From assembly GCA_903826405.1 (NCBI GenBank), contig CAIKEH010000032.1, positions 1-64,000 on the forward strand: a stretch of 64,000 bases of DNA, in the 5' to 3' direction. The position numbers and the translations under genes are program-made. Shown here piece after piece: positions 42,096 through 53,813 of this stretch. Positions within the stretch are counted from its first letter, which is position 1; every line of letters begins with the position of its first letter. This stretch comes from an uncultured bacterium. Its GTDB lineage: Bacteria > Bacteroidota > Bacteroidia > Chitinophagales > Chitinophagaceae. A model generated the notes under the pieces. That model had not been told where the DNA came from, did no database searches, and saw only the letters and a program-made list of their open reading frames with translations.

Positions 42096-42199
42096 CTGGC
42101 CACCTGTAAAGATACAAAGAAACGGCCCGGACCACCCTGATTTTAACCCTCAGGAACCAAAAACTTTTTGCATTTTTGCAGGAAAGGGAAAGACCCCGA

Positions 42200-42964
42200 A
42201 TGAACAGCAACATACTTTCTTCAATCATTGCCAAGAAATCGCAGGGCCAAAAGTCCTTCGCCGTATTGGTTGACCCCGACAAAGCTTCCGGGCGGCAGAT
42301 CGTCGACCTGGTTGCTCTGGCCGTTGAAGCCGGGGTGGATTACCTATTCGTCGGAGGAAGCCTTGTGGTTTCCAACCATTTGGATGAAGTGGTTCAACAG
42401 ATCAAAAAAGAATGTGACATGCCGGTCGTCCTTTTCCCAGGTAGCCCCAACCAGATCTCCCGATACGCCGACGCCTTGCTATACTTGTCCCTCATCTCTG
42501 GACGGAATGCTGAATTGCTGATCGGTCAGCATGTGATCTCCGCCCCCATGGTGAGGCAGAGCGGTCTGGAAATCATGTCGACCGGCTATATGGTAATCGA
42601 TGGAGGAGCCCCTACCACTGTTTCATACATCAGCAATGCCAACCCCATCCCTGCAGACAAGAACGAGATAGCGGTTTGCACTGCCATGGCTGGAGAAATG
42701 CTGGGAATGAAGCTGATCTACATGGATGCAGGAAGCGGTGCGAAAAAACCTGTTTCCGAACAGATGATAGAAGCCGTTTCCAAGCAGATCTCCATCCCCC
42801 TTATTGTGGGAGGCGGTATAACATCTCCCGAACAGGCTTATAGGGATTGTAGGGCTGGTGCAGACCTGATTGTTGTCGGAAACGCGATTGAGAAAGACCC
42901 CATGCTGATCCGAGAGATGAGCGAAGCCATCCACAAATCCCCTACACTGACCACCGGTCACTGA
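42200..42964 (+). CDS. Geranylgeranylglyceryl phosphate synthase-family protein (PcrB/GGGPS)
   Basis: 254 residues of a TIM barrel of the GGGPS/PcrB family. It has FAVLVDPDK near residue 20-28, GGSLVV near 52, FPGSPNQIS near 79, YMDAGSGA near 170, GGGITSPEQA near 202 and a final phosphate site VVGNAIEKD near 225. The family joins a polyprenyl diphosphate to glycerol-1-phosphate, the first committed step of archaeal ether lipids, and in Bacillota makes heptaprenylglyceryl phosphate. Bacteroidota carry group II members, some shown to act in vitro; their cellular role is not settled. ATG 42200 gives the usual length. Chain length cannot be read. Confidence 0.88.
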   Translation: MNSNILSSIIAKKSQGQKSFAVLVDPDKASGRQIVDLVALAVEAGVDYLFVGGSLVVSNHLDEVVQQIKKECDMPVVLFPGSPNQISRYADALLYLSLISGRNAELLIGQHVISAPMVRQSGLEIMSTGYMVIDGGAPTTVSYISNANPIPADKNEIAVCTAMAGEMLGMKLIYMDAGSGAKKPVSEQMIEAVSKQISIPLIVGGGITSPEQAYRDCRAGADLIVVGNAIEKDPMLIREMSEAIHKSPTLTTGH

Positions 42965-44620: not shown

Positions 44621-45334
44621 ATGAACATGGAACAGCAATTACAATTCCAGATATTGATCGCTAGCGAATCCCACTTTCATTATGCAGAGACCATTTGCCA
44701 GGAAATGTCGGAATCGGCAAAGGCCCGCGGCACCGGGATCGCCACGCGATCTCCCGACTATATTCGTGATAAAATGAGGGAAGGTAAAGCCGTGATAGCC
44801 CTATCCGATAAAAACGAATGGGCTGGTTTCTGCTATATCGAGACCTGGAGTCATGGTGAATACGTGGCCAACTCCGGTCTGATCGTCTCACCGTCTTTCC
44901 GCAAAGGTGGTCTGGCCAAATCCATCAAGAAAAAGATCTTCGAACTCAGCAGGCAGAAGTATCCGGACGCCAAGATCTTCGGACTTACCACTGGTTTGGC
45001 TGTCATGAAAATAAACTCCGAGCTGGGCTATGAGCCAGTGACCTATTCCGAACTTACGCAGGATGAGGCTTTCTGGGCAGGTTGCAAAAGTTGTGTGAAC
45101 TATGAGATACTCATGAGCAAGGATCGCAAAAACTGCATGTGTACCGCAATGCTATATGACCCGAAGGACCATTATGAGCCTGAAGAGACCAAAGAGTTTT
45201 TTGAAAAGAAATCCAAAGTGCTGGAAAGACTGACACGCATCAAGGAGTGGAAACTACTGAAACCCTTTTTACGTGAAACAGGAGGAGGTGGCCCTACGGT
45301 AAAGTCATTCTTCAGTTCCATATTCCCATTTTAG
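44621..45334 (+). CDS. GNAT-family acyltransferase at the head of the arginine operon (candidate N-acylglutamate synthase)
   Basis: 237 residues. A GNAT core (EWAGFCYIETW near 67, VSPSFRKGGLAKSIKKK near 90-106, LAVMKINSELGY near 127-138) is followed by a C-terminal extension with several cysteines (WAGCKSC, NCMCTAM). It is first in the arginine operon, 20 bp before argG. The operon has no recognisable argA or argJ, so this protein is the best candidate to acylate glutamate at the start of the pathway. Similar GNAT genes lead arginine clusters in Bacteroidota, as I recall. Given the downstream carbamoyltransferase, the acyl donor could be succinyl-CoA. Function is inferred, not shown. Confidence 0.75.
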   Translation: MNMEQQLQFQILIASESHFHYAETICQEMSESAKARGTGIATRSPDYIRDKMREGKAVIALSDKNEWAGFCYIETWSHGEYVANSGLIVSPSFRKGGLAKSIKKKIFELSRQKYPDAKIFGLTTGLAVMKINSELGYEPVTYSELTQDEAFWAGCKSCVNYEILMSKDRKNCMCTAMLYDPKDHYEPEETKEFFEKKSKVLERLTRIKEWKLLKPFLRETGGGGPTVKSFFSSIFPF

Positions 45335-45354
45335 AACTTTAACTGAATAGGGTC

Positions 45355-46566
45355 ATGTCAAAAAAAGTAGTACTCGGTTTCAGTGGTGGTCTCGACACCT
45401 CTTTCTGTGTGAAGTACCTCACGGAAGACAAAGGATATGAAGTCCATAGCATCATCGTGAACACGGGCGGTTTCTCCGATACGGAACTACAACAGATCGA
45501 GAAACATGCCTATAGTTTGGGGGTGAAATCACATACTGCGGTAGATGCCGTGATAGACTACTACGACAATATCATCAGGTACCTGATCTATGGCAATGTC
45601 CTCAAGAACAATACTTACCCGTTGAGTGTGAGTGCGGAACGGCTTAGCCAGGCCCAGCATATTGCGGAACACGTCAGGAAAACCGGGGCCAATGCCGTGG
45701 CGCACGGAAGCACCGGTGCAGGGAACGATCAGGTCCGATTCGATATGATATTCCATATCATGATCCCCGGTGTGGATATCATCACTCCCATACGTGACCT
45801 CAAACTCAGCCGCGAGTCGGAGATCGAATATCTGAAGGGAAAGGGAGTGGTGATGAACTTCGAAAAAAATCTTTACTCCATCAACAAGGGCCTTTGGGGC
45901 ACCAGCGTAGGCGGCAGGGAGACCCTGCAGTCAAAAGGCATGCTACCCGAATCGGCATGGCCCACACCTGTGACCAAGGAAGGAACAGAGGAAGTGAAAC
46001 TCACGTTCACCAAAGGCGAACTTACTGCCGTCAACGAGCACCAATTTGCACACCCGACCGAAGCGATCAAACATCTACAGTCGATCGCCGGACCCTATGG
46101 GATCGGTCGGGACATACATGTGGGGGACACCATCATCGGTATCAAAGGGCGTGTTGGATTTGAAGCTGCAGCACCCATGGTCATCATTAAAGCTCACCAT
46201 GCCCTGGAAAAGCACGTGCTCACCAAATGGCAACTCAACTGGAAAGATCAACTGGCCTTATTCTACGGCAACTGGCTGCATGAAGGGCAGATACTGGATC
46301 CCGTCATGCGGGATATAGAAGCTTTCTTCACGAACTCTCAGGAACCAGTTACAGGCGATGTGTTCCTGCAACTCATGCCCTACCGGTTTCAGGTAATTGG
46401 CATCCAATCCCCATACGATCTGATGAGCAGCCGTTTCGGTAAATATGGCGAAATGAATACGGGATTCACTGGGGAAGATGTCCGCGGTTTTTCCCGCATC
46501 TTCGGCAATCAGACTTCCATTCATCAACAGATCAGGTCGGAAGTCAACAGCAGGGAGGGCCAATAA
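45355..46566 (+). CDS. argG: Argininosuccinate synthase
   Basis: 403 residues. The ATP-pyrophosphatase P-loop is LGFSGGLDTSFCVKYL near 8-18, and HGSTGAGNDQVRFD near 119 binds aspartate/citrulline. It condenses citrulline and aspartate with ATP to argininosuccinate. It is placed second in the operon here although it acts near the end of the pathway. Normal length. Confidence 0.96.
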   Translation: MSKKVVLGFSGGLDTSFCVKYLTEDKGYEVHSIIVNTGGFSDTELQQIEKHAYSLGVKSHTAVDAVIDYYDNIIRYLIYGNVLKNNTYPLSVSAERLSQAQHIAEHVRKTGANAVAHGSTGAGNDQVRFDMIFHIMIPGVDIITPIRDLKLSRESEIEYLKGKGVVMNFEKNLYSINKGLWGTSVGGRETLQSKGMLPESAWPTPVTKEGTEEVKLTFTKGELTAVNEHQFAHPTEAIKHLQSIAGPYGIGRDIHVGDTIIGIKGRVGFEAAAPMVIIKAHHALEKHVLTKWQLNWKDQLALFYGNWLHEGQILDPVMRDIEAFFTNSQEPVTGDVFLQLMPYRFQVIGIQSPYDLMSSRFGKYGEMNTGFTGEDVRGFSRIFGNQTSIHQQIRSEVNSREGQ

Positions 46567-46703
46567 ACAAAGTTACAGTCGGGTCGGTTGTCTGGAGGGA
46601 TTTGGTGGAGAAAATACAGCATAAGACCAGTGGGTCTTCATATCCAAATAATCCAGTCCCTGCCCGAAGTTTAAAGGAGGAATCAACGGCAATAAAAAAG
46701 AAC

Positions 46704-47684
46704 ATGAACAAGATCAAGATAGGTATCATTGGAGGAGCGGGATACACCGGCGGTGAACTGCTGCGGATACTTCTCCATCATCCCAATGCCCACATCAGTT
46801 TCATCCATAGTAACAGTAATGCCGGCAATCCAGTCCACCTCATTCACCAAGACCTCATCGGGGGAACCGATCTTGTATTCACCCGTGAGATCGATCCGTC
46901 GATCGACTTACTTTTCCTCTGCGTTGGTCATGGAGAGGCCAGAAAATTCCTTGAAGCACATCCGCTCGGAAATGGGGTCAAGGTGATCGATCTTTCACAG
47001 GATTTTCGACTTCCGGATCATGCGCATTTCCAAGGCCTCTCATTCGTATACGGACTTCCGGAGATAAACCGGGATCTCATACGGAATGCAAGAGCTATCG
47101 CCAATCCCGGATGTTTTGCCACAGCTATACAACTGGGATTACTACCTCTCGCCCAAGCTGGGCTACTAGATGAGGTGCAAACTACAGGCATCACCGGTTC
47201 AACCGGTGCCGGCCAAAGCCATAGCCTCACCTCCCATTTCAGTTGGAGAGCAAACAACATACAAGCTTATAAAACACTAACCCATCAGCACCTCCAGGAG
47301 ATCGGTGCCACCTTGCATCAGGTCCAACCAAACAGGACAACTGAAGTCAGCTTCATCCCGTGGCGCGGCGATTTCACTCGGGGGATATTCATCAGTTCCC
47401 AAATGAAATCTGATCTCCCGCTGGATGAAGTGAACGGTCTTTTCCAGGCTTTTTATGAAAATCATCCATTCACCACGATCTGCAGTGAACCCATTTTTCT
47501 GAAGCAAGTGGTCAATACCAACAAGGCTGTCATCCAGATCGAAAAAGCGGGCAACCGAATCGTCATCCACTCTGCTATCGACAACTTGTTGAAAGGTGCA
47601 TCCGGTCAGGCCGTACAGAACATGAATCTCCTGTTCGGGATCGAAGAGGAAGCCGGGCTTAAGTTGAAGGCGAATTTTTTTTGA
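46704..47684 (+). CDS. argC: N-acyl-gamma-glutamyl-phosphate reductase
   Basis: 326 residues. The Rossmann motif GIIGGAGYTGGELLR is near 6-20, the nucleophilic cysteine is in NPGCFATAIQLGLLPL near 134-149 and a catalytic histidine in the SGAGQSHS-like region near 170. It reduces the acyl-glutamyl phosphate made by ArgB to the semialdehyde with NADPH. ATG 46704 (MNKIKIG) is chosen; the upstream 34 codons carry no homology. The 137-bp gap after argG is the largest in the operon. Confidence 0.94.
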   Translation: MNKIKIGIIGGAGYTGGELLRILLHHPNAHISFIHSNSNAGNPVHLIHQDLIGGTDLVFTREIDPSIDLLFLCVGHGEARKFLEAHPLGNGVKVIDLSQDFRLPDHAHFQGLSFVYGLPEINRDLIRNARAIANPGCFATAIQLGLLPLAQAGLLDEVQTTGITGSTGAGQSHSLTSHFSWRANNIQAYKTLTHQHLQEIGATLHQVQPNRTTEVSFIPWRGDFTRGIFISSQMKSDLPLDEVNGLFQAFYENHPFTTICSEPIFLKQVVNTNKAVIQIEKAGNRIVIHSAIDNLLKGASGQAVQNMNLLFGIEEEAGLKLKANFF

Positions 47685-47788
47685 TTAAAAGATCACCGGG
47701 GCTATGAATAATAAATTATCATCATCGAACAGACACCCATTCATTAATCCACTGATTCGCTAATCCGTTAATTCATTTACCACATCTG

Positions 47789-48949
47789 ATGAAATTATTT
47801 GACGTCTATCCGATCAACGACATCACCATCACCCGGGCCAAGGGTTCGCACGTTTGGGATGACAAGGGCCAACAATATTTAGACATGTATGGTGGGCATG
47901 CCGTGATCAGCATAGGGCATACACATCCGAATTATGTGGACCGGCTGACCGAACAGCTTAATCAAGTAGGATTTTATTCCAACTCGGTTCGGATACCGCA
48001 GCAGGAACACCTTGCAGAACTCCTGGGCAAGATCACCAACAAACCCGACTTCCAACTCTTTCTTTGCAATTCCGGAGCAGAAGCAAATGAGAATGCACTA
48101 AAACTGGCGTCATTCCACACAGGCAGGAAACAAGTTGTGGCCTTCAGGAAAGCCTTCCATGGAAGAACCTCCCTTGCCGTAGCGGCTACGGACAACCCAA
48201 GCTTGGTTGCGCCCATTAATCAAACTGACGTCATTACTTTTCTTCCATTCAACGATGAACAGGCGTTGGAAGAACATTTCACCGCCCATGGTGAAGAGAT
48301 TGCAGCCGTGATCATAGAAGGTATTCAGGGCGTGGGAGGGATTCACATTGCATCGGAAAACTTCCTCAGGAAGATCCGATCTCTATGTGATCGTTTTGGA
48401 TCCATATACATAGCTGACAGTATTCAATGCGGTTATGGTCGTAGTGGGAAATTCTTCAGTCATGACTTTGCAGGAGTAGATGCAGACATTTACTCCATGG
48501 CCAAGGGCATGGGAAATGGCTTCCCGGTAGCAGGCATCATGATCTCCCCGAAGATAAAACCAAAGCATGCCATGCTGGGTACGACCTTCGGCGGCAATCA
48601 TCTCGCTTGCGCCGCTGCAATCGCCGTTCTTGAAGTTATCGAATCTGAGGACCTGATCAATAATGCAGCCGCCATGGGATCCCTACTGATGAAGGAGATT
48701 GGCGAAATGCCTCATCTTACGGCTGTACGGGGCCGAGGACTGATGATTGGCTTCGATGTTCCGGATACCATGAAGGATCTCAGGAAGAATCTGCTTTGGA
48801 AACGCAGGATCTTCACCGGAGAGGCCAAGCCGAATGTGATCCGTCTCCTCCCTTCGCTTGCACTCATGAAACATGATGCACAAAATTTCCTGGATGCCCT
48901 GAAAGAAGAGATCCAACTTCTTGAACAACATAGAAACACCGTCAACTGA
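47789..48949 (+). CDS. argD: N-acylornithine aminotransferase
   Basis: 386 residues of the class III (fold type I) PLP aminotransferases. NSGAEANENALKLA near 94-107 holds phosphate-binding residues. The PLP lysine is in MAKGMGNGFPVA (Lys 239), and Asp 210, which holds the pyridine nitrogen, is in IADSIQCGYGRSG. Most relatives have DE[IV]Q where this has DSIQ. It transfers an amino group from glutamate to the N-acylglutamate semialdehyde. The acyl group, acetyl or succinyl, cannot be decided here. It is followed by the carbamoyltransferase after 1 bp. Confidence 0.93.
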   Translation: MKLFDVYPINDITITRAKGSHVWDDKGQQYLDMYGGHAVISIGHTHPNYVDRLTEQLNQVGFYSNSVRIPQQEHLAELLGKITNKPDFQLFLCNSGAEANENALKLASFHTGRKQVVAFRKAFHGRTSLAVAATDNPSLVAPINQTDVITFLPFNDEQALEEHFTAHGEEIAAVIIEGIQGVGGIHIASENFLRKIRSLCDRFGSIYIADSIQCGYGRSGKFFSHDFAGVDADIYSMAKGMGNGFPVAGIMISPKIKPKHAMLGTTFGGNHLACAAAIAVLEVIESEDLINNAAAMGSLLMKEIGEMPHLTAVRGRGLMIGFDVPDTMKDLRKNLLWKRRIFTGEAKPNVIRLLPSLALMKHDAQNFLDALKEEIQLLEQHRNTVN

Positions 48950-48950
48950 T

Positions 48951-49919
48951 ATGAGAAACTTCATCTCCGTCTCTGATGTACAAGACATTCCGTCGCTCGT
49001 CGATCAAGCGCTATTCTACAAGAAAAATCCCTTTTCCGATCAGGATCTTGGAAGGCACAAACGCATAGGATGCCTCTTCCTCAATCCGAGCATGCGTACC
49101 CGATTGAGCACACAGATCGCTGCACAGCATTTGGGCATGGAGGCCATTGTGTTCAATGTGGGTCAGGAAGGCTGGGCCCTTGAATTCGAAGATGAAGCCA
49201 TCATGAGTGGAAACACGGTTGAACACGTACGCGATGCCGCACCGGTCCTGGGTCGCTACTTCGACATCCTCGCCATACGTACATTCCCTTCACTGAAGAA
49301 CAGGGAAGATGACTACAGCGAACTTTATATGAATCAATTCATCAAATACGCGGGAATCCCGGTACTGAGTCTGGAAAGCGCAACCCTTCACCCCCTGCAA
49401 AGCCTCGCGGACATCATCACCATGACAGAGTCCATGCAATCGCAAGGTATCGTCAGGCCACGGGTCGTACTCACCTGGGCCCCTCATGTCAAGCCACTGC
49501 CCCAATGCGTAGCCAATAGTTTTTCTCAATGGGTGAACGCGTGGGGACAGGCGGATTTCGTGATCACACATCCAGAAGACTATGAGCTTGATGATAGGTT
49601 CACGCAGGGAGCTACCATCCTGCATGATCAGGACGAAGCGTTGAAAGGTGCAGACTTCGTATATGTGAAAAATTGGAGTACCTACCAGGATTATGGAAAG
49701 ATCTATACCAATGATCCCGGATGGATGCTCAGCAATAAAAAGCTCCAGTTTACTCGACAGGCACGCGTGATGCACTGCCTTCCCGTTCGCAGAAATATAG
49801 AACTCAGTGATGAGGTTCTGGATGGCCCCAATAGCATCGTCACGCAACAAGCTTCAAACAGAGTTTGGGCAGCACAATCCGTTCTAGCATCCCTGTTGAA
49901 GGACAACGCATCGAAATGA
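48951..49919 (+). CDS. argF': N-acylornithine carbamoyltransferase, predicted N-succinylornithine-specific
   Basis: 322 residues of the transcarbamylase fold. The carbamoyl-phosphate site SMRTR is at 47-51, HPLQSLAD at 147-154, and HCLPVRRN near 277. It acts on N-acylated ornithine rather than ornithine, as in Bacteroides fragilis (succinyl) and Xanthomonas (acetyl). The residue that sets the choice, Glu 92 in the acetyl enzyme and Pro 90 in the succinyl enzyme, is Val 90 here (context GNTVEH). Replacing that Glu with Val was reported to turn the acetyl enzyme into a succinyl enzyme. Its stop overlaps the argB start (ATGA). Specificity is inferred. Confidence 0.9.
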   Translation: MRNFISVSDVQDIPSLVDQALFYKKNPFSDQDLGRHKRIGCLFLNPSMRTRLSTQIAAQHLGMEAIVFNVGQEGWALEFEDEAIMSGNTVEHVRDAAPVLGRYFDILAIRTFPSLKNREDDYSELYMNQFIKYAGIPVLSLESATLHPLQSLADIITMTESMQSQGIVRPRVVLTWAPHVKPLPQCVANSFSQWVNAWGQADFVITHPEDYELDDRFTQGATILHDQDEALKGADFVYVKNWSTYQDYGKIYTNDPGWMLSNKKLQFTRQARVMHCLPVRRNIELSDEVLDGPNSIVTQQASNRVWAAQSVLASLLKDNASK

Positions 49920-50716
49920 AGCCCATGAAAGAAACATTATATATCATCAAAGTCGGCGGCAACATCATAGATGACGAAAGGAAGCTATCCGCCTTCCTCG
50001 CTGATTTCGCTGCACTGCCCGGCAGGAAGATACTGGTTCATGGTGGTGGCAAATTGGCAACTAGGATGGCGGATCAGTTGAATATACCGCAACAAATGGT
50101 GGATGGACGCAGGATCACGGATGAAGAAACCCTCCGGATCGTGACGATGGTTTATGCAGGATACATCAACAAGTCCATCATAGCCTACCTCCAGGCCAAT
50201 GACTGCCCATCGATAGGCATCAGTGGTGCAGATGGTGATGCCATCCGTTCACATCGCCGGATAAAGGGTGAGATCGATTATGGTTTTGTCGGAGATGTTG
50301 ATGCCGTCAATGCTGACCTGATCTCGAATTGGCTGGAACAGGGCCTTGCGCTCGTAGTCGCCCCCATCACCCACGATGGGAAAGGGCAACTACTGAATAC
50401 CAATGCGGACACGATCGCTCAGGAACTGGCAAGTAGCCTTAGTGAAAGATACCTGACCATACTTACCTACTCCTTCGAAAAGAATGGAGTATTGATCGAT
50501 ATCGAAGATGAACTTTCGGTCATCCCCTTGATCACTCCGTCTTCATATGCACAACTTAAGGAAGAGGGCAGGATATTCGCCGGAATGATCCCAAAACTGG
50601 ACAATGCATTTCGAGCACTTGCGTCTGGCGTGGAACGGGTCATCATCGGTAAAGGTGAGGATCTATACCAACTATTGGCCGGTAAGAAAGGGACCACGAT
50701 TAATCTGAACAAATGA
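49916..50716 (+). CDS. argB: N-acylglutamate kinase
   Basis: 266 residues of the amino-acid kinase fold. The glycine-rich IKVGGNIIDD is near 9-18, VHGGGKLATRM near 42-52, SGADGDAI near 104 and late NTNADTIAQELA near 163. It phosphorylates the N-acylglutamate gamma-carboxyl with ATP. ATG 49916 overlaps the TGA of the preceding gene (ATGA), so translation is probably coupled; ATG 49925 is an alternative. Its acyl specificity should follow that of the carbamoyltransferase. Confidence 0.94.
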   Translation: MKPMKETLYIIKVGGNIIDDERKLSAFLADFAALPGRKILVHGGGKLATRMADQLNIPQQMVDGRRITDEETLRIVTMVYAGYINKSIIAYLQANDCPSIGISGADGDAIRSHRRIKGEIDYGFVGDVDAVNADLISNWLEQGLALVVAPITHDGKGQLLNTNADTIAQELASSLSERYLTILTYSFEKNGVLIDIEDELSVIPLITPSSYAQLKEEGRIFAGMIPKLDNAFRALASGVERVIIGKGEDLYQLLAGKKGTTINLNK

Positions 50717-51405
50717 ATATGGAAAAAGCCATACAGCAACTTAAAGATGGTGGGATCAAAGGCCTGATATTCGACATGGACGGCACATTGGTCCACAATA
50801 TGCATTTCCACCAGCAGGCTTGGTTGGCATTTCTGGAGAAACATGGCATCAATGTGAGTGAAGAGGAATTCTGGGAAAAGAATGCCGGAACAATCACGGA
50901 GATCGTACCCCGTTTCTTCGATGGCCTCACCGACGAGGCGGAGATCATCCGATTGGGTAACGAGAAAGAGGCCATGTATCGTGAACTTTACCGACCACAT
51001 GTGGAGCCACTACCGGGACTCAAGGAATTTCTGGAAACCGCTCATTCAGCAGGACTTCGCTTGGCATTGGCCACCGCAGCAGACAAGGGTAATATCGATT
51101 TCACTTTAGAGGAGTTGGGCATCACCGGTCATTTTGATGTACTCACTGGCAGCGAGGAAGTTAAAAAAGGCAAACCTGACCCCGAGGTTTTCCTCGTATC
51201 TGCAAAAAAGCTTGGACTCAAAACCGGGGAATGTCTGGTGTTTGAAGACAGTCATGTCGGCATTAGTGCAGCCCTTGCTGCGGGCATGCCCGTCATCGGC
51301 ATGGCCACCACCCATACCCGAGAAGAATTAACCGCACAACCCTTGCTCGCCATTCTCGACGATTATGTCATGATCGGTAACACAGACATTCAACTTCAAG
51401 CATGA
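50713..51405 (+). CDS. HAD-superfamily hydrolase, beta-phosphoglucomutase-like
   Basis: 230 residues. Motif I is GLIFDMDGTLVHN near 16-28, an alpha-helical cap follows, then motif II/III and motif IV LVFEDSHVGISAALAAGM near 175-192. The fold matches phosphatases and beta-phosphoglucomutases of the GS/Pgm type. It lies inside the arginine operon and overlaps both neighbours by ATGA, which indicates translational coupling. No arginine enzyme has this fold. It may dephosphorylate a misformed or leaked acyl phosphate, or an unrelated phosphate. Role unknown. Confidence 0.9.
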   Translation: MNMEKAIQQLKDGGIKGLIFDMDGTLVHNMHFHQQAWLAFLEKHGINVSEEEFWEKNAGTITEIVPRFFDGLTDEAEIIRLGNEKEAMYRELYRPHVEPLPGLKEFLETAHSAGLRLALATAADKGNIDFTLEELGITGHFDVLTGSEEVKKGKPDPEVFLVSAKKLGLKTGECLVFEDSHVGISAALAAGMPVIGMATTHTREELTAQPLLAILDDYVMIGNTDIQLQA

Positions 51406-52496
51406 GCAAGCACGAAGAACTATATAATGATGCAATATCCTTGCTGAAAGAACTGATCGCAACGCCATCTTTCAGTCGTGAGGAGGATCAGAGTGCTGGC
51501 GTCATCTGCAGGTTCCTCGGGCTGCACCACATTGAGCATTCCCGTACGGGAAACAATGTGTTTGCTTACAACAAACATTTCGATCCTGCAAAGCCCAGTA
51601 TCCTGCTCAACTCTCATCATGATACGGTAAAGCCGGCAAGAGGTTATACCCTTGACCCGTTCACACCGATAGAAAAAGATGGTCTACTATACGGCTTGGG
51701 GAGCAACGATGCCGGAGGGCCCTTGGTTGCTTTGATCGCGACGTTCGTCCATTTCTATGAAAAGCAAGGTCTGAATTATAATATCGTGCTCGCCGCAACT
51801 TGTGAGGAGGAAATATCCGGACCGAACGGTGTGGAAACCCTTTTGTCCCAGGCTTCTTTCATGGATCGTTTCGAAGGAAAAAAAATCGATTCCGCCATTG
51901 TGGGCGAACCCACACAAATGCAGATGGCAGTTGCGGAAAGAGGCCTCATGGTGCTGGATTGCAAGGCCAAAGGCCGATCGGGGCATGCCGCGCGCAATGA
52001 AGGTGAAAACGCGATCGAAAAGGCATTGCAGGACATCCGAAGAATTCAGGAATTAGCATTCCCAAATGTTTCCAAATTGCTGGGTCCGGTAAAATTGAGT
52101 GTGACTGTCATCGAAACAGAGAACAAGGCACATAATGTGGTACCGTCCATCTGTCGTTTTGTAGTCGATGCCCGGGTGAATGAACTATACACCTTTGAAG
52201 ATATTCTGAACATTTTAAGGTCAGAGATCAAGAGTGAGATTGAACCAAGGAGTACCCGTCTGAAATCGACTTCCATGGCACTCAACCATCCGCTCGTGCA
52301 ATCAGGAATCTCGATGGGAAAAACTTACTACGGCTCTCCCACTACATCAGATAAGGCATTGATGGATTTTCCTGCGCTCAAAATGGGCCCTGGTGATTCC
52401 GCCAGGAGCCATACCGCTGATGAATTCATTTCACTTGATGAGGTCAGGGCCGGAATCTCTGATTACATTACCTTACTGGAGAAAATCGTCCAATAG
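51402..52496 (+). CDS. M20-family N-acyl-citrulline/ornithine deacylase
   Basis: 364 residues of the M20 metallopeptidase fold. Metal ligands fit LNSHHDTVK near 67, SNDAGG near 104, the glutamate pair in TCEEEIS near 136 and IVGEPTQ near 163; the dimerisation domain contains GRSGHAARNEG near 190. Placement after the acylornithine carbamoyltransferase suggests it removes the acyl group from N-acylcitrulline to free citrulline for ArgG. It is the ArgE-equivalent of this pathway. Start ATG 51402 overlaps the preceding stop (ATGA). Which acyl group it removes is inferred from the carbamoyltransferase. Confidence 0.88.
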   Translation: MSKHEELYNDAISLLKELIATPSFSREEDQSAGVICRFLGLHHIEHSRTGNNVFAYNKHFDPAKPSILLNSHHDTVKPARGYTLDPFTPIEKDGLLYGLGSNDAGGPLVALIATFVHFYEKQGLNYNIVLAATCEEEISGPNGVETLLSQASFMDRFEGKKIDSAIVGEPTQMQMAVAERGLMVLDCKAKGRSGHAARNEGENAIEKALQDIRRIQELAFPNVSKLLGPVKLSVTVIETENKAHNVVPSICRFVVDARVNELYTFEDILNILRSEIKSEIEPRSTRLKSTSMALNHPLVQSGISMGKTYYGSPTTSDKALMDFPALKMGPGDSARSHTADEFISLDEVRAGISDYITLLEKIVQ

Positions 52497-52514
52497 GCCT
52501 CCCAAAAAAACAAC

Positions 52515-53813
52515 ATGAAACTCTGGCAAAAAGAAAATTCATCCCTCTCCGAGGTCATAGAAAGATTCACCATCGGACGTGACCAGGAATTCGATCTTTT
52601 GCTCGCTCCATACGACGTAATTGGATCCATGGCTCATGTTCGTATGCTCGGGGAGAACGGGTTGATGAGTCAAGAGGAATCGGTTCTTGCGGTCCAAGGT
52701 CTCGAACAGATCGCCAAGGAGATCCAAGCAGGGACCTTTCGCATCGACGAAGGTGTGGAAGATGTGCATTCACAGGTGGAGTTAATGCTCACCGATGCGA
52801 TCGGTGAGGCGGGTAAAAAGATTCATAGCGGCAGAAGCCGAAACGATCAGGTGGCGACGGATATCAAACTTTTTCTGCGTGATGCGATCACGGGCATCAA
52901 GGAAGAAGTGAACCGTCTTTTCTCCCTATTGCTTGAACTCAGCGAAAAGCACAAAGACCAACTGCTGCCAGGATATACACATCTCCAAGTAGGCATGCCA
53001 TCCTCCATCGGACTTTGGCTGGGCGCCTATGCGGAGAGTCTTGTGGACGATCTGGAGATGCTGGCCGCCGCCCATTCCGTTACCAACAAGAATCCATTAG
53101 GCAGTGGTGCAGGGTATGGCTCTTCTTTTCCGCTCAACCGCCAAAGGACCACGGAACTACTTTCCTTTGCAACGCTCAACTGGAATTCCGCATATGCCCA
53201 AATGAGCAGAGGCAAGACGGAGAAACTGGTAGCCATGGCCATGGCGAGCATTGCCTCAACGTTGGCACGACTCTCCATGGATTGCTGTCTGTATCTGAAT
53301 CAGGACCACGGATTCATCGGCTTCCCTGATGAACTCACCACCGGGAGCAGCATCATGCCACATAAGAAGAACCCGGACGTTTTCGAACTTATCCGCGGTA
53401 AGTGCAACCGGATACAGTCCACTCCGAATGAACTCGCCCTGCTTTCCACCAACCTCCCTTCGGGTTACCATCGTGAGATGCAACTCACGAAGGAAGTGCT
53501 ATTCCCTGCTATCAGCGATCTGATGGCATGCCTTCAACTCATGCAGGTCATGCTATCAGCCATGTCCGTGAAGCAGAATATCCTGCAAGCGGACAAATAC
53601 AAATATATATTCAGCGTGGAAGCCGTCAACGAACTGGTCAATAAAGGCATCCCTTTCCGTGAAGCTTACAGGGAGATAGGCAGCCGAATTGCAGCAGACA
53701 GTTTCAGTTTCGACTCTTCCAAACCGCTGAACCATACCCACGAAGGCAGTATCGGAAATCTATGTAATGAAGAGATCAGAAGGGAGATGGCGAAAGTATT
53801 GAAGAAGTTCTGA
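52515..53813 (+). CDS. argH: Argininosuccinate lyase
   Basis: 432 residues of the fumarase/aspartase fold. Near the N terminus is GRDQEFDLLLAPYD. HSGRSRNDQVATDI lies near 104-117, TGSSIMPHKKNPDVFEL near 277-293 is the signature loop with the catalytic serine, and LRLS-like helices follow. It splits argininosuccinate into arginine and fumarate, the last step. Last gene of the operon, 18 bp after the deacylase. Convergent with the LytTR gene. Confidence 0.95.
   Translation: MKLWQKENSSLSEVIERFTIGRDQEFDLLLAPYDVIGSMAHVRMLGENGLMSQEESVLAVQGLEQIAKEIQAGTFRIDEGVEDVHSQVELMLTDAIGEAGKKIHSGRSRNDQVATDIKLFLRDAITGIKEEVNRLFSLLLELSEKHKDQLLPGYTHLQVGMPSSIGLWLGAYAESLVDDLEMLAAAHSVTNKNPLGSGAGYGSSFPLNRQRTTELLSFATLNWNSAYAQMSRGKTEKLVAMAMASIASTLARLSMDCCLYLNQDHGFIGFPDELTTGSSIMPHKKNPDVFELIRGKCNRIQSTPNELALLSTNLPSGYHREMQLTKEVLFPAISDLMACLQLMQVMLSAMSVKQNILQADKYKYIFSVEAVNELVNKGIPFREAYREIGSRIAADSFSFDSSKPLNHTHEGSIGNLCNEEIRREMAKVLKKF

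Follow-up and report, generated by a model that had tools for sequence, protein, structure and literature searches.

Does the arginine operon of an uncultured member of the Chitinophagaceae (phylum Bacteroidota) carry its intermediates as N-acetyl or as N-succinyl derivatives? The question is raised by argF', a gene for a probable knotted carbamoyltransferase (48951-49919, + strand) within the window analysed here, a 64,000-nucleotide stretch of contig CAIKEH010000032.1. The original prediction held that Val 90 of its product aligns with Pro 90 of the N-succinylornithine transcarbamylase (SOTCase) of Bacteroides fragilis and with Glu 92 of the N-acetylornithine transcarbamylase (AOTCase) of Xanthomonas, that changing this Glu to Pro, Ser, Ala or Val makes the acetyl enzyme a succinyl one, and that a native Val argues for succinylornithine and for a succinylated route throughout the operon.

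The argF' frame comprises 322 residues without an internal stop. A longer version beginning at TTG 48921 was offered by the ORF caller; the ATG at 48951 is the likelier start, since Met 1 of the B. fragilis enzyme aligns there. Residue 90 is Val, in the motif GNTVEH, and its codon, at the published acetyl/succinyl specificity site, falls at 49218-49220 (+ strand) by arithmetic from 48951. When the product was compared with PDB sequences using phmmer, the top matches were the B. fragilis SOTCase (1js1, E 2.2e-95; 2fg6) and its P90E mutant (2g7m), followed by entries for the X. campestris AOTCase (E about 1e-55). The alignments were gapless around residue 90, and the rows opposite GNTVEH read GDKPEH (1js1), GDKEEH (2g7m), GDTEEH (3m5c) and GDTVEH (3l06), the last being an E92V AOTCase crystallised, according to its title, with a succinyl ligand. 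MAFFT likewise placed Val 90 on Pro 90 of B. fragilis and on residue 112 of the X. campestris chain, which is the published Glu 92 plus the 20-residue offset of the construct; the register was also right for two other landmarks (Asn 185, chain 205; Lys 302, chain 322). The predicted alignment is thus borne out with its residue numbers, and it is Val, not Glu, that occupies the specificity site. Chance does not account for this residue, because Val was found in 73 of the best 80 of 587 related loci (genome_contigs), the others having Ser (3), Ala (3) or Ile (1).

Titles of further crystal entries describe AOTCase variants E92V, E92A, E92S and E92P with carbamyl phosphate and a ligand whose name begins N-succinyl-L-nor, and SOTCase P90E with carbamoyl phosphate and a ligand beginning N-ac. 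Each single change at this site is said to have swapped substrate preference in the work of Shi et al. in 2007. The effect stated for replacing Glu by Pro, Ser, Ala or Val fits these titles and a review (PMC4581275), in whose account Glu 92, Asn 185 and Lys 302 of AOTCase give way in SOTCase to A/S/P/V/Q, P and V/I/E, respectively. At these three columns of the MAFFT alignment the argF' product has Val 90, Pro 184 (codon 49500-49502, + strand) and Glu 284 (codon 49800-49802, + strand), all of succinyl type, in place of the Glu, Asn and Lys of AOTCase. Residue 90 may help to choose the acyl group: Glu 92 of the Xanthomonas enzyme would go with the small acetyl group, and an uncharged Val, like Pro, Ser or Ala, would presumably neither repel nor crowd the succinyl carboxylate.

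The remainder of the active site is close to that of B. fragilis SOTCase (1js1, 2fg6, 2fg7), with which the argF' product shares the fold, the carbamoyl-phosphate site, equivalents of E142, K236, H176 and R278, and Pro at the Asn185 site. The transcarbamylase motifs SxRT, HPxQ and HxLP are all present (S47-M-R49-T50, H147-P-L-Q150 and H275-C-L-P278). Of 17 B. fragilis positions that were mapped (16 SOTCase residues from Table 1 of PMC4581275, and position 90), 14 are identical and three differ: L48 is Met, P90 is Val and R178 is Lys. At the Lys302 site, B. fragilis has Ile where the argF' product has Glu. The succinyl anchors given for B. fragilis are H176, R178 and R278 (PMC4581275), and their equivalents are H179, K181 and R280, so that the first and third are kept. 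The exchange of R178 for Lys counts against a simple succinyl reading. Lys at this site, which retains the positive charge, is also found in 118 of the 151 close homologues in the phylum and in X. campestris AOTCase. The same exchange would suit a promiscuous enzyme that accepts both acyl-ornithines and leaves it to the acyl group supplied by argX to set the flux, a proposal that sits badly with the reported swaps of preference by single changes at the site and to which the survey below returns.

An AlphaFold model of the argF' product, built from an input of 34 sequences (the product and 33 of the 80 genome_contigs loci), had a mean pLDDT of 84.4 and a pTM of 0.88. It matched 1js1 with Z 41.9 (rmsd 1.5, 304 residues) and 2fg6 with Z 41.7 (rmsd 1.9, 306 residues); the best AOTCase match was 3kzk (Z 37.4, rmsd 2.1, 304 residues). 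Because residues 78-86, in the 80's loop adjoining the site, have pLDDT below 50, the model is silent on side-chain geometry at residue 90. The 13 best structure matches were all AOTCase or SOTCase entries. An ordinary ornithine transcarbamylase (OTCase, EC 2.1.3.3), to which the common superfamily and the matching Pfam OTCace domains might point, has a negligible chance of being the right description: OTCase structures scored Z 34.0 and below, the OTCase models fell far under their cut-offs (NF001986, 141.2 bits against 306; TIGR00658, 117.5 against 280.85), and the product bears the marks of the knotted enzymes, namely the proline-containing loop HVKPLPQ, Trp 75 and the E142/K240 pair.

Within the knotted group, the alternative is that argF' encodes an N-acetylornithine transcarbamylase and that the intermediates handled by the operon are acetylated. 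The nearest NCBIfam model, NF003384, carries the name N-acetylornithine carbamoyltransferase (286.7 bits, cut-off 288), and X. campestris AOTCase shares with the product the fold, with Z up to 37.4, the 80's-loop Trp and the HxKPL loop. However, the wild-type Xanthomonas enzyme differs in having Glu 92, Asn 185 and Lys 302, which are replaced here by Val and by the succinyl-type Pro and Glu, and identity is 48.4% to B. fragilis SOTCase (312 columns) versus 35.7% to X. campestris AOTCase (297 columns). A FastTree phylogeny of 201 sequences, computed without position 90 and rooted on the X. campestris enzyme, contains a branch (support 99) that divides the argF' product, the B. fragilis enzyme and 150 close sequences of the phylum from 48 middle sequences and X. 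campestris; this places the product on the SOTCase side. Since X. campestris was set as the outgroup, our claim is confined to this branch (152 versus 49 sequences), and, because position 90 is Ala or Val in most of the 48 middle sequences, the branch alone separates no substrates. One further point in its favour concerns argX and is given below; overall, the acetyl alternative is very unlikely.

The operon spans 44621-53813 in the order argX-argG-argC-argD-argF'-argB-HAD-M20-argH, nine co-directional genes of which argF' is the fifth. All are on the + strand. Upstream of argF' lie argX (44621-45334), an argA2-like GNAT-family transferase and putative N-succinylglutamate synthase (Pfam Acetyltransf_1, E 3.6e-4); argG for argininosuccinate synthase (45355-46566; NCBIfam argG models, best E 1.2e-86, under curated cut-offs); argC for N-acyl-gamma-glutamyl-phosphate reductase (46704-47684, with the start taken from the ORF translation; TIGR01850 above cut-off, 291.7 bits); and argD for an aminotransferase of the acetylornithine/succinylornithine family (47789-48949; TIGR00707, E 1e-100, under cut-off). 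Downstream lie argB for N-acylglutamate kinase (49916-50716; TIGR00761 above cut-off, 188 bits); a HAD-family phosphatase gene (50713-51405; HAD_2, E 3.9e-32); an M20 deacylase, the candidate N-succinylcitrulline desuccinylase (51402-52496; Peptidase_M20, E 2.4e-21; TIGR01910, DapE-ArgE, E 3.6e-39, under cut-off); and argH for argininosuccinate lyase (52515-53813; TIGR00838 above cut-off, 345.3 bits). ATGA overlaps join argF' to argB, argB to the HAD gene and the HAD gene to the M20 gene. The gene set of the succinylated pathway (GNAT, SOTCase, ArgB, ArgC, ArgD, desuccinylase candidate, ArgG and ArgH) is thus present in full. An open reading frame upstream of the operon (42176-42964, + strand) contains the motif FAVLVDPDK and may encode a protein of the geranylgeranylglyceryl phosphate synthase type.

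The eight-gene order without the HAD gene was complete in 52 of the best 80 of 587 related loci in genome_contigs, which are clipped by contig ends to a varying degree, and in 85 of 150 close phylum loci within the stretch taken. Four of the same best 80 of 587 loci have the HAD gene in the position it occupies here, after argB and before the M20 gene; at a cut-off of 1e-15, no HAD gene was seen there in any of the 150 close or 48 middle phylum loci. It resembles beta-phosphoglucomutase, and we would not expect it to have a role in arginine synthesis.

In the proposed pathway, the argX product would acylate glutamate, with succinyl-CoA as the likely donor, and the products of argB, argC and argD would carry the succinylated intermediates forward. 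The argF' product would then convert N-succinylornithine and carbamoyl phosphate to N-succinylcitrulline, from which the M20 enzyme would take off succinate, leaving argG and argH to provide the final steps of arginine synthesis.

For the first step, the GNAT protein of Bacteroidetes arginine operons has been proposed as N-succinylglutamate synthase (PMC7311316, PMC9026213), and we infer that argX is an orthologue of this BT3761-type enzyme. According to GapMind, BT3761 is over 50% identical to Cabys_1732 of Caldithrix abyssi (PMC7311316), a protein described, from unpublished results, as an N-acetylglutamate synthase (PMC5317091). Because of this report, argX alone is no proof of a succinyl-CoA donor, and the Caldithrix relative is the further point that favours the acetyl alternative. 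It also underlies a broader reading, in which natural enzymes without Pro 90 would not be strictly succinyl-specific and argX would set the acyl group, acetyl or mixed in some lineages; we regard this as improbable.

The host genome (G000; 3,585,023 bases in 55 contigs, 100% complete) was searched for other routes to arginine. The carbamoyltransferase domains PF00185 and PF02729 identified two proteins, the argF' product and one on contig 5 whose motif MHPGPINRG presumably marks it as an aspartate transcarbamylase; a second ornithine-type carbamoyltransferase was not found by this search. ArgJ had no match in the genome. For ArgA-type synthases the search covered one model, TIGR01890, whose sole match was argB, under the cut-off. 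In the absence of ArgJ, ArgA and ornithine-type carbamoyltransferase matches, the operon is the sole arginine route that these searches show. Because the three discriminating residues, the grouping with B. fragilis, the argX-headed operon and the lack of matches to ArgJ or an ornithine-type carbamoyltransferase all point the same way, we conclude from comparative evidence that the argF' product is very probably an N-succinyl-L-ornithine transcarbamylase of the knotted group, acting within a succinylated arginine pathway. The same lines of evidence support the extension of the original prediction to the whole operon.

How far Val itself is informative was addressed by a survey of 392 genomes of the phylum. 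These are an even sample from a larger group but represent the genera unequally, and the counts are therefore not independent events. By E-value, 199 of the 392 genomes have a knotted carbamoyltransferase: 151 form a close group (at or below 1.4e-83; 43-100% identity to the argF' product) and 48 a middle group (9.8e-64 to 1.4e-38; 34-42% identity), the boundaries being our own reading of the E-values; the other 193 gave weak matches or none. Position 90 in the close group is Val (47), Ala (43), Ser (34), Thr (11), Gln (11), Pro (3), Ile (1) or Gly (1), and in the middle group Ala (35), Val (7), Thr (4), Gln (1) or Pro (1). Glu was found at this position in none of the 199 knotted enzymes of the sampled genomes. 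An argX homologue (E ≤ 1e-10) is present in 150 of the 151 close, 19 of the 48 middle and none of the 193 other genomes; ArgJ, by comparison, was found in 2, 4 and 136, respectively. All 54 genomes with Val 90 have argX and none has an ArgJ match.

Val as the informative letter was nevertheless rejected. Genomes bearing argX vary at the site, and what they have in common is the absence of Glu; since Ala, Ser, Thr, Gln, Pro, Ile and Gly also occur with argX, it is 'not Glu', rather than Val, that constitutes the signal. On the 201-sequence tree made without position 90, the fewest changes required at the site were 25 for the residue itself, 9 for Val versus any other residue and 1 for Glu versus any other. 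Of the step from a native Val to succinylornithine, the succinyl specificity is supported and the special standing of Val is not. The variety at position 90 among argX-bearing genomes might also mean that selection on the site is loose, as would suit the promiscuous enzyme introduced above, but the lack of Glu in the 199 phylum sequences examined speaks against it, and we consider promiscuity extremely unlikely.

We did not adopt the opposite extreme, that any non-Glu residue guarantees a succinyl pathway. In four middle genomes (G223, G365, G376 and G386) Thr at the site is accompanied by ArgJ, and argX is missing, so a non-Glu residue alone is no proof of the succinyl route. Of the five sequences that lie closest to X. 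campestris AOTCase in the tree, four are the enzymes of these genomes (L236, L234, L245 and L235, respectively). ArgJ releases free ornithine, which makes a knotted acylornithine enzyme beside it odd. Neither argX nor ArgJ was found in 25 of the 48 middle genomes (loci L234-L281), and argX lay near the carbamoyltransferase in none of the 48 middle loci within the stretch taken, though 19 of these genomes carry it. In the close group, two genomes with Gln at the site have ArgJ alongside argX (G227 and G389), and one with Thr, whose gene is on an 8.4-kb contig, gave no argX match (G363); none of the three has a Val enzyme.

The diagnostic residues sometimes disagree with one another, as in nine of the 54 Val enzymes, the argF' product not among them, the Asn185 site holds Ala rather than Pro, and in three close enzymes with Ala 90 and argX the Lys302 site still has the Lys of the acetyl type (L113, L128 and L111, in G190, G249 and G355). 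All phylum enzymes with Ala at the Asn185 site have Val 90 (L119, L123, L131, L132, L134, L135, L269, L273 and L280), for which a coupling of the two positions and shared descent are both possible explanations.

These observations agree with published accounts of the phylum. GapMind counted S/P/A/V at the site in 61 of 69 Bacteroidetes (PMC7311316), and ArgF3 and ArgA2 are reported to co-occur in 190 gut Bacteroidetes genomes (PMC9026213); our survey is in line with both. The succinylated pathway described for B. thetaiotaomicron, Echinicola and Pedobacter (PMC7311316, PMC9026213) has, as here, a GNAT first enzyme, a SOTCase with S/P/A/V at position 90 and a deacylase candidate, with no ArgA or ArgJ found in those descriptions. 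The arrangement differs: the genes described here lie in a single run that includes an additional HAD gene, whereas the B. thetaiotaomicron genes BT3549, BT3717 and BT3758-3761 appear, from their tag numbers, to be separate (PMC7311316).

The diagnostic-residue argument is thus already published for Bacteroidetes, as a rule (PMC4581275) and in its application to 69 of them (PMC7311316). The succinylated pathway is the published norm in the phylum, argF' is an ordinary Bacteroidota gene of this kind, and no new biology is opened by it. Its practical meaning is a warning of likely misannotation: the nearest curated model, NF003384, carries the N-acetylornithine carbamoyltransferase name, and relatives scoring slightly above its 288 bits could automatically be given the name of the acetyl enzyme. 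To the published argument the survey adds its counts, with the acetyl-type Glu in 0 of the 199 genomes and an argX-type enzyme accompanying 150 of the 151 close enzymes.
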